Assembly (NCBI GenBank): GCA_025352905.1
Contig: JANXRX010000187.1
Location: 1 to 32,038 of the forward strand
Reading direction: 5' to 3'
Length of the DNA: 32,038 bases
From: Bacteroidota bacterium
Lineage (GTDB): Bacteria > Bacteroidota > Bacteroidia > Chitinophagales > Chitinophagaceae
Below, piece by piece: positions 7,801-13,123 of this stretch. Every line of letters starts with the position of its first letter. The first letter of the stretch is position 1. Below the pieces are notes generated by a model. It saw only the letters and a list, made by a program, of their open reading frames with translations, had not been told where the DNA came from and did no database searches. The position numbers were made by a program, and so were the translations under genes.

Positions 7801-7915
7801 ATACTTATCAAGAAAGGCAGAGGGATTTTGGCCCGTTGAAGCCTTGGCAACCCATACAGTTTACTCAATTGTATGAAGGTGCCAACTCCGACCACGAAAG
7901 TGGAGAGATAAGTCA
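7801..7915 (+). promoter_or_regulatory. SAM-I (S-box) riboswitch
   Basis: The S-box core is readable in order. P1 5' strand CTTATC (7804-7809) is followed by AGAAAGGCAGAGGGA, then TGGCCCGTTGAAGCC, then TTGGCAACC. A variable P3 hairpin comes next, then AAGGTGCCAACTCC, a P4 hairpin CCAC-GAAA-GTGG, and GAGAGATAAG, whose GATAAG (7907-7912) pairs with P1. These are the conserved kink-turn and SAM-pocket elements of SAM-I. It senses S-adenosylmethionine and should reduce expression of the downstream trans-sulfuration gene, and perhaps the whole met locus, when SAM is plentiful. Confidence 0.93.
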
Positions 7916-8120: not shown

Positions 8121-9302
8121 ATGAGCAGTGCTACTGAATTGATCCACAGCATCCCGGTTGACCCGTTAACGGGTGCCATTTCTGTTCCGATCTACCAAAC
8201 CTCCACCTACGTGCAGGATGCACCGGGGGTAAACAAAGGATATGATTATGCCCGTTCCAACAACCCTACCCGTGGTGTTCTGGAACAACTGATCGCAGAA
8301 CTCGAAAAAGGGGAAATGGGTATTGCCTTTGGCAGCGGGCTCGCGGCGATCGATGCGGTGGTAAAACTGCTGAAATCGGGCGATGAGATATTGGCGGTAG
8401 ATGATATCTATGGCGGGGCCTTCCGCTTATTCGGCAGCATCTATGAAAAGTTCGGGATAACCGTTACGTATACCGACACATCAAATATTGAAAATGTGTT
8501 CAATGCACTCAGCTCCAATACAAAACTTATCTGGCTCGAATCGCCTACCAATCCTACTTTAAAGATCTCTGATATTGAAGCCATCGCCAGGATCGCAAAA
8601 GCGCAGGGATGCTTGTTATGTGTTGACAATACTTTTGCCTCACCCGTATTACAGCAACCGATCGCTTTGGGGGCGGATATTGTGGTACACAGTGCAACCA
8701 AATACCTGGGCGGACACAGCGACCTGATAGCCGGGCTGGTGGTAACAAAAACAAAGGAACTGGGTGAAAAGATTAAATATATTCAAAACGCCTGCGGGGC
8801 CATACTGGCGCCGTTCGACAGCTGGCTGGTGATCCGTGGGATTGAAACACTGCATCTCAGGATAAAACAACATTGTGCCTCTGCCCTGGAAGTAGCCAGG
8901 TTCCTGGAAACACACCCGGCGGTAGAAAAAGTATTTTATCCCGGCCTGGCCACACATCCTAATCATACTGTTGCTAAAAAACAATCCAAAGGCTTTGGCG
9001 GGATCGTATCTTTTACCCTGAAAAATGATTCGGAAGAAGCGGCGGTTCAATTAGTTACTCAAACGAGGCTATTCAAATTAGCAGAAAGCCTGGGGGGTAT
9101 TAAAAGCCTTGTGTCGCACCCGGCTAATATGACGCATAAATCCATTCCCGCTGCAAAAAGAAGGGCCGCGGGTGTTGCCGATAGCCTGATCCGGTTATCA
9201 GTAGGACTGGAAGATGCTGAAGACCTGGTGGCCGATCTTGAGCAGGCTTTTGAAAAAGCAACGGGTGCAAAAAGCAAGCAATCAACCGTATTATCATATT
9301 AA
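8121..9302 (+). CDS. Trans-sulfuration PLP enzyme (cystathionine gamma-synthase / beta-lyase family)
   Basis: Fold-type I Cys/Met metabolism PLP enzyme, 393 residues. Motifs: PIYQTSTY (24-30), YARSNNPTR (43-51, cofactor-phosphate Tyr/Arg), FGSGLAA (70-76), DDIYGG (94-99), VDNTFASP (168-175), the PLP Schiff-base lysine K194 in HSATKYLGGHSD, and SLGGIKSLVSHP near the C-terminus. Family members make cystathionine from acylated homoserine and cysteine, cleave it, or act as gamma-lyases; sequence alone does not separate these, so no symbol is assigned. It is the first gene after the SAM-I riboswitch, which points to methionine biosynthesis. A 217-bp gap containing a Cys-rich leader peptide separates it from metY. 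Confidence 0.88.
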   Translation: MSSATELIHSIPVDPLTGAISVPIYQTSTYVQDAPGVNKGYDYARSNNPTRGVLEQLIAELEKGEMGIAFGSGLAAIDAVVKLLKSGDEILAVDDIYGGAFRLFGSIYEKFGITVTYTDTSNIENVFNALSSNTKLIWLESPTNPTLKISDIEAIARIAKAQGCLLCVDNTFASPVLQQPIALGADIVVHSATKYLGGHSDLIAGLVVTKTKELGEKIKYIQNACGAILAPFDSWLVIRGIETLHLRIKQHCASALEVARFLETHPAVEKVFYPGLATHPNHTVAKKQSKGFGGIVSFTLKNDSEEAAVQLVTQTRLFKLAESLGGIKSLVSHPANMTHKSIPAAKRRAAGVADSLIRLSVGLEDAEDLVADLEQAFEKATGAKSKQSTVLSY

Positions 9303-9310
9303 AATAAAAA

Positions 9311-9341
9311 TTGGTAACACAACGAAAGTCTATTAGTTTTA
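9311..9341 (+). promoter_or_regulatory. Candidate internal promoter before the Cys leader peptide
   Basis: TTG at 9311-9313 and TAGTTTTA at 9334-9341, spaced by 20 bp, approximate the Bacteroidota -33/-7 promoter; the last base of the -7 element is A instead of G. Transcription would start a few bases before the leader-peptide ATG at 9353. The metY-metX-hom unit could thus be expressed independently of the SAM riboswitch. Confidence 0.4.
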
Positions 9342-9352
9342 TAGGATAAAAT

Positions 9353-9436
9353 ATGCGAACAACCTGCAACACATATCATCACCTGCTTCTGTCAGCAGAA
9401 AGCTGTTGTTGCGGTATAAGTTATTATATGCCATAA
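9353..9436 (+). CDS. Cys-rich leader peptide upstream of metY
   Basis: A 27-codon frame (ATG at 9353, TAA at 9434) reads MRTTCNTYHHLLLSAESCCC then GISYYMP. Three consecutive Cys codons (TGT TGT TGC, 9404-9412) follow an earlier Cys5. Cysteine is rare, so CCC in a 27-residue peptide just before a sulfhydrylase gene is the hallmark of a ribosome-mediated attenuator: a ribosome starved of Cys-tRNA would stall there. The outer arm of a hairpin (9413-9453) starts right after the Cys codons, and the TAA lies in the loop of its inner stem. A candidate promoter sits immediately upstream. The peptide itself probably has no function after synthesis. Alternative: a chance frame, which the position and composition make less likely. 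Confidence 0.65.
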   Translation: MRTTCNTYHHLLLSAESCCCGISYYMP

Positions 9437-9453
9437 GGCATATACTGTTATCC
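9413..9453 (+). promoter_or_regulatory. Hairpin overlapping the Cys leader peptide (putative attenuator)
   Basis: Inner stem TATATGCC (9425-9432) pairs perfectly with GGCATATA (9437-9444) around loop ATAA. An outer stem pairs GGTATAA (9413-9419, one bulged T) with TTATCC (9448-9453). The outer 5' arm begins at the first base after the Cys codons, so a ribosome paused on them would cover it and change the fold. A second hairpin, TTCTG-TCAG-CAGAA (9387-9400), lies inside the peptide frame and could be the alternative partner. No long T-tract follows, so control by translation or Rho is as plausible as intrinsic termination. Confidence 0.5.
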
Positions 9454-9480
9454 TCCAAACCATAGGCCCCCTTTATTTAA

Positions 9481-10833
<1,353 letters not shown>

Positions 10834-10845
10834 ACCGCAGGTAAA

Positions 10846-11856
10846 GTGACGAAAATATTTCAGTACAGCGAGCCATTCCTGCTTGAATCGGGTATCCGTT
10901 TACCAGGATTTCATTTAGCATACACTGTGTATGGTGAACTGAATGAGCAGAAGAATAATGCGGCGTGGATTTTTCATGCATTGACCGCTAATAGTAATGC
11001 AGTAGAATGGTGGCCCGGACTGGTAGGTGAAAACACTTTCTTTGACCCTGCAAAATATTTCATCGTTTGTGCGAATATGCCGGGCAGTTGTTATGGCAGC
11101 CTTGGCCCGTTTGATGCGGATCCGCTTTCGGCCGAAACGTATTACCATCATTTCCCGGTTTTTACAACAAGGGATATGGTACGCGCTTACCGGCATTTGC
11201 AGGCGTTTTTAGGAATAGAACATATCCATATCGGGATAGGCGGTTCTATGGGCGGGCAGCAATTGCTCGAATGGGCAGTGGAAGATCCTTCCGTTTTTGA
11301 ATACATCATTCCGCTGGCCACCAATGCGTTTCATTCTCCCTGGGGAATTGCTTTCAATGCCACACAAAGACATTGTATCGAAAAAGATCTTAGCTGGAAA
11401 GAAAAAGACGAGCGGGCCGGTCTGGAAGGGATGTCATTGGCCCGGGAGATCGCGCTGCTTTCCTACCGTAATTACCATACCTACCTGCTAAACCAGTCGG
11501 AAACCGATATTGAAAAAACGGGCGCGTATAAAACGGAAACCTATCAGCAATACCAGGGGCATAAGCTGGCAGCCAGGTTCAATGCATTCAGTTATTTTTT
11601 TCTGAGCAGGGCTATGGACGCACATCATATAGGCAGGGGCCGCGGGTCGGCCATCAGCGCATTAGAGCGGATCACGGCCAAAACACTGGTATTGAGCATC
11701 AGTTCCGATCTGTTGTTCCCCGTTGAAGAACAGGTATTCCTGGCAACGCATATTAAAAACGCTGTGCATACCATCATTGATTCAGATTATGGTCATGATG
11801 GTTTTTTACTTGAGTTTACACAGATCGAAAAAGCGATCAGGCTATTTATTTCTTAA
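10846..11856 (+). CDS. metX: Homoserine O-acetyltransferase
   Basis: Alpha/beta-hydrolase-fold enzyme that transfers acetyl from acetyl-CoA to homoserine, giving O-acetylhomoserine for MetY. 336 residues from a GTG start at 10846, 12 bp after the metY stop. Family motifs: LTANSNA (46-52), CANMPGSCYGSLGP (75-88), nucleophile elbow GGSMGGQQ with catalytic S134, then D288 in SSDLLFP and H317 in GHDGFL completing the Ser-Asp-His triad. Slightly shorter than many MetX proteins but with all catalytic parts. Substrate preference (acetyl versus succinyl) is inferred from the MetX-type motif set and the adjacent metY. Confidence 0.94.
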   Translation: MTKIFQYSEPFLLESGIRLPGFHLAYTVYGELNEQKNNAAWIFHALTANSNAVEWWPGLVGENTFFDPAKYFIVCANMPGSCYGSLGPFDADPLSAETYYHHFPVFTTRDMVRAYRHLQAFLGIEHIHIGIGGSMGGQQLLEWAVEDPSVFEYIIPLATNAFHSPWGIAFNATQRHCIEKDLSWKEKDERAGLEGMSLAREIALLSYRNYHTYLLNQSETDIEKTGAYKTETYQQYQGHKLAARFNAFSYFFLSRAMDAHHIGRGRGSAISALERITAKTLVLSISSDLLFPVEEQVFLATHIKNAVHTIIDSDYGHDGFLLEFTQIEKAIRLFIS

Positions 11857-11866
11857 AAGAATTATC

Positions 11867-13123
11867 ATGGAAACACACAAACAGTTAACAATAGGTTTAT
11901 TTGGTTTTGGCGTAGTAGGCGAAGGTCTATACAAGGTTTTACAACAGACCCCGTCGCTCAAAGCCTCCATCAAAAAGATCTGTATCAAAAATCCGGGGAA
12001 GAAAAGAGATGCCCCTGCGTCTTTATTTACAACCGATAAGGATGAATTACTGTTTGATGAAGAGATTAATGTGATTGTTGAAGTGATAGATGATGCCAAT
12101 GCGGCTTTTACGATCATATCAACCGCCCTGCGAAACGGAAAGGCCGTTGTGAGCGCCAGTAAAAAGATGATTGCCGAACATTTGCCGGAAATACTACAGT
12201 TACAGCGGGAAACCGGGTTGCCCTTCCTGTGCGAGTCTGCCGCCTGTGCTTCCATCCCTGTGATACGCAATCTCGAAGAATATTACGACAACGATCTTCT
12301 TCATTCGATCAAGGCGATCGTAAACGGGTCAACAAATTTTATCCTTACAAAAATGTTCGAGGATAAACTGGATTTTACTTCGGCATTATTGCTGGCCAAG
12401 CAACTGGGCTTTGCGGAAAGCGATTCCAAATTAGATGTGGAAGGATATGATGCCGTTAACAAGTGGACCATCCTGCTGAACCATGCATATGGTATTGTGG
12501 AACACCCTGATCATATTTTATTTACCGGGATACAGAATATCCAGTTGAGCGATGCGGTAGTTGCCAAAGAGAAAAATTTTGATATCAAGCTGATAGCGCA
12601 GGCAAAAAAACTGGGTAATGGTAAAGTGGCTGCTTTTGTTCTGCCCCAGTTCATAAAACTGGATGAGCCGCTTTCCTTTGTAAAAAATGAGTACAATGGC
12701 GTAGTGATCGAAAGTGGTTTTGCCGATAAACAATTCTTTTATGGCAAGGGCGCAGGCAGTTTCCCTACCGCCTCCGCGGTATTAAGTGATATTTCAGCAT
12801 TGCGGTATAATTACCGTTATGAATACAAAAAATTGTATCACCACCAGCCGCATCAACTCACAGACGATTATTACCTGAAAGTATACCTGAGTTTTGATGA
12901 CTGGAAATACATACCACGCGAAAAATTTGAATGGATAGAAGAATGGCACGCAGATGCCGAAAGAAAATACCTGGTAGGCGTTCTGCATGTCCGCAACCTA
13001 ACAGAAGCCACCTGGTGGAAAGAGAATAATACTTCTCTCATCCTCACCACGGAGCCCATTATCGACAACCTCGATATCATTAACCTGAAGAAAAGGAGTC
13101 TTGAGCTGGCGGGGATTGTATAA
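11867..13123 (+). CDS. hom: Homoserine dehydrogenase
   Basis: NAD(P)-dependent reduction of aspartate semialdehyde to homoserine, feeding MetX and threonine synthesis. 418 residues from the ATG at 11867, 10 bp after the metX stop; the frame is open further upstream, but that extension overlaps metX and encodes no conserved sequence. Motifs: GFGVVG (13-18) nucleotide-binding loop, SASKKM with K99/K100, NGSTNFILTKM (153-163), and AESDSKLDVEGYDAVNKWTI-type catalytic segment with E184, D195 and K199. No fused aspartokinase domain. The C-terminal ~110 residues are not an obvious ACT domain. It is the last gene of the metY-metX-hom cluster, with short spacers indicating one transcript. Confidence 0.93.
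   Translation: METHKQLTIGLFGFGVVGEGLYKVLQQTPSLKASIKKICIKNPGKKRDAPASLFTTDKDELLFDEEINVIVEVIDDANAAFTIISTALRNGKAVVSASKKMIAEHLPEILQLQRETGLPFLCESAACASIPVIRNLEEYYDNDLLHSIKAIVNGSTNFILTKMFEDKLDFTSALLLAKQLGFAESDSKLDVEGYDAVNKWTILLNHAYGIVEHPDHILFTGIQNIQLSDAVVAKEKNFDIKLIAQAKKLGNGKVAAFVLPQFIKLDEPLSFVKNEYNGVVIESGFADKQFFYGKGAGSFPTASAVLSDISALRYNYRYEYKKLYHHQPHQLTDDYYLKVYLSFDDWKYIPREKFEWIEEWHADAERKYLVGVLHVRNLTEATWWKENNTSLILTTEPIIDNLDIINLKKRSLELAGIV

Follow-up and report, generated by a model that had tools for sequence, protein, structure and literature searches.

The trp and his attenuators have their regulatory codons beside a first hairpin whose loop holds the leader stop codon; an antiterminator and a terminator come next, and attenuator switching is usually kinetic. 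For cysteine, mycobacteria reportedly possess polycysteine leaderless short ORFs (sORFs; said to be described by Canestrari et al. 2020), which are said to act by a translational mode of attenuation. In Actinobacteria, candidate cys leaders carry runs of Cys codons by the stop codon, and Rho has been proposed to act there (PMC1262725), while the uORFC-8-2 motif located before cysS in Rhodobacterales is predicted to function by ribosome-mediated attenuation (PMC8632094), in both cases according to the parts of these papers on which we draw. Within the phylum Bacteroidota, leader-peptide attenuation has been noted upstream of amino-acid operons in Flavobacterium, in a passage that does not name cysteine (PMC9723704); further related work, likewise drawn on in part, is found in PMC13236596, PMC9094748, PMC7366714, and PMC2965389. 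Among the matches listed in a literature search covering titles and the beginnings of abstracts, cysteine leaders in Bacteroidota were not found.

Here, we analyze a poly-Cys leader upstream of metY in a Bacteroidota genome. Like the trp and his attenuators, it has its codons by a first hairpin and the stop codon in the loop, and relatives located before a reductase gene also possess an antiterminator and a terminator; in contrast to trp and his, the metY branch is without a general antiterminator and mostly without a terminator. Judged by description, it resembles the mycobacterial sORFs in having a Cys-codon run within a short ORF that precedes sulfur genes and in being predicted to begin at or near the 5' end of the transcript, but it belongs to another phylum, has a conserved hairpin whose loop contains the stop codon, carries an inverted repeat at the promoter, and has SAM-I riboswitches nearby. 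Compared by description, the actinobacterial leaders share Cys runs near the stop, the lack of a conserved terminator hairpin and the proposed involvement of Rho, yet they precede cys and cbs operons and have no conserved hairpin reported in the part of the source used here (PMC1262725). The uORFC-8-2 motif, also compared by its partial description, has two tandem Cys codons in its first stem and the same predicted mode of action, but it precedes cysS in alphaproteobacteria and includes a terminator (PMC8632094). The SAM-I (S-box) riboswitch is an element apart from the leader, located further upstream, and its ligand is SAM rather than cysteine. The leader would represent a familiar general type, the cysteine attenuator, in a setting that is new and apparently spread across Bacteroidota.

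The metY locus and its leader ORF

The window (i.e., the whole 32,038-nucleotide stretch analyzed) comes from a genome that is 93.6% complete, and all features described below are on its + strand. A SAM-I (S-box) riboswitch at 7802-7914 (Rfam RF00162, 83.4 bits, gathering score 44.4), the sole Rfam match in the window at gathering score, lies 5' of the first gene (8121-9302), which encodes a Cys/Met-metabolism PLP enzyme resembling cystathionine gamma-synthase/lyase (PF01053, 2.7e-154; the NCBIfam matches shown are all under their curated cut-offs). Between the end of this gene at 9302 and the next one is a gap of 217 bp, which is followed by metY (9520-10833), encoding O-acetylhomoserine sulfhydrylase (TIGR01326, 679.9 bits, cut-off 495.1). 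The nearest named relatives of this MetY, among the best 80 of 588 confirmed, are from Ferruginibacter and other Chitinophagaceae-type MAGs, on which basis we assign the window to the Chitinophagales. Next are a metX-like homoserine acyltransferase gene (10846-11856; TIGR01392, 1.1e-95, under its cut-off) and a homoserine dehydrogenase gene listed as an ORF at 11723-13123 (NF004976, 293.5 bits, cut-off 205), whose true start is probably later since the ORF overlaps metX.

An earlier sequence-only reading of this DNA described a 27-codon frame with three Cys codons in the 217-bp gap, and this is indeed what the sequence contains. The leader ORF (9353-9436; ATG at 9353, TAA at 9434-9436) encodes the peptide MRTTCNTYHHLLLSAESCCCGISYYMP, and its three Cys codons, TGT TGT TGC, occupy 9404-9412. 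As that reading also had it, the stop codon lies in the loop of a hairpin, TATATGCC(9425-9432)-ATAA-GGCATATA(9437-9444). When the window's own 300 bases were shuffled 2000 times, an equal Cys density in an ATG ORF was reached in 0.65% of cases (0.0065). We consider that the leader and its Cys run go beyond chance, with conservation as the decisive evidence.

Poly-Cys leaders recur upstream of metY

We defined a leader as a short ORF with at least three Cys within six residues. The named set comprised the metY loci of named Bacteroidota that ranked as the best 80 of 588 confirmed, together with the window, 81 in total; ORFs with ATG starts were sought in the 300 bases upstream of metY. A leader is present in 45 of these 81 loci, when 1.27 are expected from shuffles and one is found on the antisense strand. 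With at least four Cys, the corresponding figures are 35/81, 0.03, and 0. The leaders were found in Chitinophagaceae-type genomes, Chryseolinea, Pontibacter, Rufibacter, Mucilaginibacter, and Pedobacter; in this set, the seven Algoriphagus loci and the two Cyclobacterium loci have no poly-Cys leader before metY.

In the window's own family, MetY is encoded by 135 of the 294 sampled genomes (E≤1e-120). Five of the 134 other genomes were left out, four because they were cut short (G802, G655, G734, and G797) and one at 49% identity (G654), which gave 129 metY upstreams besides that of the window, some of them short. Allowing ATG, GTG, or TTG starts, 67/129 have a leader, with 3.40 expected from shuffles, and 54/129 have one with at least four Cys (0.15 from shuffles); 62/129 metY genes are without such a leader. 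On the antisense strand of the family upstreams, at least three Cys are reached in 16/129 and four in 4, which is above the shuffle expectation. Some members are shared between the two samples, named and family (for instance, L053 and L198). Dinucleotide-keeping shuffles were used for both leader counts and for the terminator-site counts given below, while hairpin strength, the antiterminator tests, the operator and composition work, and the reductase leader count relied on single-base shuffles only. Conservation of the Cys run upstream of metY in relatives, which had been put forward as a check of the attenuator proposal, is thus found in both sets. Like the window, 19 of the 67 family leader loci have a cystathionine-type gene upstream. 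The link between the Cys leader and metY also emerges from a gene-blind pattern combining Cys codons and hairpin, TGYTGYATGCCNNAAGGCAT, which matches in 12/298 genomes of the order (0 for the reversed control), and 10 of these 12 matches lie directly upstream of metY.

Five of the 67 family leaders, although retained in that count, were excluded from the hairpin, terminator, operator, and composition work, two because they were judged spurious (L167 and L235) and three because they have a different short form (L187, L249, and L250). The latter, from genus g315, end in MGCCCQ or MMGCCCE instead, and another TGTTGTTG stretch lies immediately 5' of this form. For the named loci, a 450-nt upstream search with the stop codon within 260 nt of metY yielded 44 leaders, in 26 of which the last Cys is the final residue. 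In the ten-residue stretch that the last Cys closes, 48-52% of residues are Cys, compared with 1.6-3.3% in the N-terminal rest, the N-terminal part being variable among relatives. Met is also more frequent in these ten residues in the 44 named leaders (9.9% vs 2.4% in the rest), at least one being present in 31/44, and this enrichment is weaker in the family (6.1% vs 3.4%; 27/62 leaders). Met codons can be seen within the Cys run itself, for example in L074, L085, L088, L107, and L110. Such codons may add methionine sensing to the device.

A conserved hairpin holds the leader stop codon

The window hairpin at 9425-9444 has all of its 8 pairs intact. When the window is taken together with 62 of the 67 family leaders (63 in all), 76.8% of cells are paired in this 8-pair helix, a level reached by 0/500 shuffles, and sliding the helix by 1 to 3 columns brings the paired cells to at most 49.5%. 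Changes on both sides are seen in 7 of the 8 helix pairs, which 8/500 shuffles equal. The core, TGCC-NNAA-GGCA, is kept across differing frames (..MP*, ..MPQGI, ..RKA). Judging from these alignments, the conserved hairpin is a feature of the RNA. Less favorably, hairpin strength exceeds the 95th percentile of shuffles in just 30/63 leaders, RNAalifold run on the gappy leader alignment predicted no pair, and the whole window leader folds no better than shuffles (z -1.03).

In most relatives analyzed, the Cys codons abut this inner hairpin, whereas a few codons separate the two in the window. The locus thus displays a feature of leader-peptide attenuators, a conserved RNA hairpin by the regulatory codons. 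The sequence-only reading had in addition proposed an outer stem starting right after the Cys codons, which did not hold up. In the window, the outer helix (9413-9416 with 9449-9452) is weakly predicted (z -1.77 for 9404-9457), and when the fold is extended to 9490, 44/200 shuffles are equally good. Since the Cys codons adjoin the inner hairpin in most relatives analyzed, the outer helix is not a conserved feature.

Promoter-like element and inverted repeat

A near-consensus promoter had been placed at 9311-9341. A sigma-70 scan found no + strand promoter upstream of the leader in the window, and the sigma-70 reading was consequently rejected. What remains of the claim is a Bacteroidota-type pair, consisting of TTGG (9311-9314) and TAGTTTTA (9334-9341), the latter one change away from TAnnTTTG, which we take to be the Bacteroidota -7 consensus; the same layout is seen in relatives. 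This promoter-like -7 element is embedded in an inverted repeat, GTCTATTAGTTTTATAGGATA (9328-9348), whose 3' end is 4 bases upstream of the leader ATG. In many relatives, an inverted repeat around the -7-like element, GTCTAYTAnnTTTRTAGRRTA, likewise lies just 5' of the leader ATG. Its regex form occurs in 30/63 leader loci, with 0.00 expected from shuffles, and in 4/41 loci without a leader, and the window copy matches the pattern exactly. The next in-frame ATG comes 7-19 bases after the -7-like element in 27 of the 30 motif loci, and the spacing goes up to 40. Because the -7-like element is so near the leader ATG, the leader is probably carried by a separate, nearly leaderless transcript. The inverted repeat looks like a putative operator for a regulator. 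The window's own genome holds three such sites in total (≤2 mismatches), and no sulfur gene was recognized by eye downstream of the other two.

Co-occurrence with SAM-I riboswitches

S-box matches are found upstream in 81/129 family loci and 64/80 named loci. In the upstream DNA examined, 49 family loci have both a leader and an S-box, 18 a leader only, 32 an S-box only, and 30 neither, while the corresponding numbers for the named loci, counted with the 44 leaders, are 41, 3, 23, and 13. The two elements therefore often occur together, and each also occurs alone. Joint sensing of SAM and cysteine, as had been suggested for this locus, agrees with the common pairing (49/67 family and 41/44 named leaders). 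However, the S-box is also frequent at metY loci without a leader (32/62 family, 23/36 named), and since a promoter-like element precedes the leader itself, the two devices need not share one transcript. Six family loci without a Cys leader (L156, L170, L182, L199, L245, and L248) have an S-box and, between it and metY, a strong intrinsic terminator.

A putative cysteine attenuator and its termination step

The Cys run, the hairpin with its compensatory changes, and the promoter/operator layout are conserved. Recurrence of the Cys run supports the central idea of the sequence-only reading, and we think it likely, on this comparative evidence, that the element controls metY, and probably also the genes behind it, as a ribosome-mediated cysteine attenuator. 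We infer stalling of the ribosome and the direction of the response as follows. A short transcript, with its 5' end a few bases before the leader ATG, would be translated without delay. A lack of Cys-tRNA would make the ribosome stall at the Cys codons, close to the base of the hairpin; with ample Cys-tRNA, the ribosome would reach the stop codon in the loop and open the hairpin. The position of the ribosome would set whether RNA polymerase continues into metY, so that metY would be up when cysteine is short. The upstream SAM-I riboswitch would govern read-through from the first promoter, and with it both the end product and cysteine would be read.

The terminator and antiterminator implied by the attenuator proposal could not be demonstrated in the window, which has no intrinsic terminator between the leader and metY and no downstream hairpin qualifying for the antiterminator test. 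Terminator-like sites lie 3' of 17/63 family leaders (3.1 expected), most plainly to the eye in L203, L210, L190, and L218, and after 11/44 named leaders (3.6 expected). They are just as common at family loci without a leader, if not more so (16/41, 3.5 expected), several of these being S-box terminators. An antiterminator was found in 1/14 family metY leaders with strict terminators and 3/39 with any downstream hairpin, and in 0/6 and 0/25 named leaders, respectively. When the stalled and stop states of metY leaders were modeled, hairpin B was unchanged, with median probabilities of 0.75 and 0.74. Pairing of the Cys-codon segment with the downstream gap (p≤0.05) is above chance in the named leaders (12/44); in the family, it is seen in 6/63.

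The termination step in the window would presumably be Rho-dependent or involve a terminator of an unrecognized kind. In the Rho-dependent form of the attenuator, which we find plausible though somewhat doubtful, ribosomes terminating at the leader stop would bare the C-rich gap, where Rho would load and stop transcription before metY, while a ribosome stalled on the Cys codons would keep the transcript covered or coupled. The window, with no intrinsic terminator, suits this form, and its C-rich, G-poor stretch at 9446-9519 (23 C, 3 G) is a possible Rho loading region. The gaps of 61 leaders show a greater C-over-G excess than 41 no-leader upstreams (p 5e-7), although the latter hold S-box terminators and other elements, and composition alone is a weak sign. 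Such C-rich, G-poor gaps fit Rho-dependent termination, a mode that has been proposed for the actinobacterial cys leaders in the part of that work used here (PMC1262725). The intrinsic terminator-like sites after 17 of the 63 leaders argue against it.

Poly-Cys leaders before other genes

A phylum-wide search with ATGTGY(TGY)3 matched in 29/247 genomes, with 32 places listed and 4 for the reversed control. At the 30 loci inspected (29 distinct sites), the next gene encodes MetY in 3 cases and PhyH in 3, a nitrite/sulfite reductase-family protein in one case, and OsmC with MetY behind it in another; for the other 21, the next gene was unrecognized by eye. A pattern of four TGY codons and a stop was discarded as uninformative, as it matches in 251/296 genomes of the phylum because TGCTGC repeats are common.

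The reductase-family gene (PF01077, PF03460) has NCBIfam matches that are all under cut-off, the best being to the NirA family, so that its assignment as a sulfite rather than a nitrite reductase is presumptive. It is present in 21/61 genomes from the family of the genome in which it was detected (E≤1e-100), and the window's own genome has no match at E≤1e-20. Leaders precede it in 17 of the 20 genomes with upstream DNA (L315-L334; for example, L325 has one and L330 has none), with 0.37 expected; L335 has no upstream DNA. An intrinsic terminator follows 15 of the 16 leaders analyzed out of these 17 (12/16 under a stricter rule), and in 12/15 reductase leaders the stretch after the Cys codons is complementary to the 5' arm of the terminator (p≤0.05; median z -2.4). 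These reductase leaders have a complete cysteine-attenuator layout with the textbook order of elements. By eye, L320 and L328 have two leader-terminator units in tandem. In two-state folding at equilibrium, in which one hairpin (L316) was plainly misplaced, the terminator is dominant in every state (medians 0.96, 0.95, and 0.96 of 12), and the switch would therefore have to be kinetic.

The reductase relatives also bear on a translational form of attenuation, in which translation of the leader would alter folding at the metY start and hence metY translation. The location of the hairpin between leader and metY agrees with this, and the mycobacterial polycysteine sORFs reportedly act in such a way. 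However, the layout in the reductase relatives is transcriptional, the single predicted fold of 9350-9522 leaves the surroundings of the metY ATG unpaired and, to our knowledge, Bacteroidota start sites are independent of Shine-Dalgarno sequences, all of which makes translational attenuation unlikely.

Among the other loci, three leaders ending in MRMCCCCCC, MRMCCCCCCC, and MRMCCCCA (L287, L289, and L295) lie ~50 bases 5' of a PhyH-family (PF05721) gene. By eye, the gene upstream of these leaders resembles a short-chain dehydrogenase, and a CTAY-N7-RTAG repeat is also found 5' of these leaders, which are from other genera. Among 60 family genomes, the sole match to a PhyH query (E≤1e-60) was the genome from which the query came. 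At L286:1633-3018, a leader precedes an OsmC-family gene, which is followed by metY, with what by eye is an S-box-like end just 5' of the leader.

The leader copy in the window

The window copy departs from the family pattern in several respects. It has three Cys and several codons between the Cys run and the hairpin, and for the latter reason it fails the gene-blind pattern. It is also without the TGYTGYATGCC join usual in relatives and without a terminator, and one relative (L157) has kept the hairpin with only one Cys. The family might thus possess the device while the window copy is degenerate or has lost its function. In view of the exact match to the operator pattern, the intact 8-pair hairpin and the rarity of its Cys run among shuffles (0.65%), we regard such decay as quite improbable. 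That the peptide itself is active, for example as a small Cys-rich metal- or thiol-binding protein, would agree with the conserved Cys-rich C-terminal part but is highly improbable, as the N-terminal part is freely variable while the hairpin is maintained across reading frames and the position upstream of metY is kept.

Implications for Bacteroidota

More broadly, Bacteroidota could have a cysteine-attenuation regulon of their own, encompassing metY, sulfite reductase, the OsmC-metY operon, and perhaps a PhyH-type oxygenase. Within it, the metY leaders, often with Met codons among the Cys codons, would read cysteine via a stop-in-loop hairpin without a classical antiterminator, mixed with SAM-I riboswitches and a palindromic operator. 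We put this forward tentatively, the case for and against being nearly balanced. The loci themselves are concrete: those before a sulfite reductase-type gene show the whole attenuator layout, and those before metY a form that is less well understood. If this is true, cysteine-sensing leader peptides would be widespread in a phylum where leader-peptide attenuation has been little studied, one sulfur gene would read SAM and cysteine by separate RNA devices, and short Cys-rich ORFs upstream of such genes would gain meaning.
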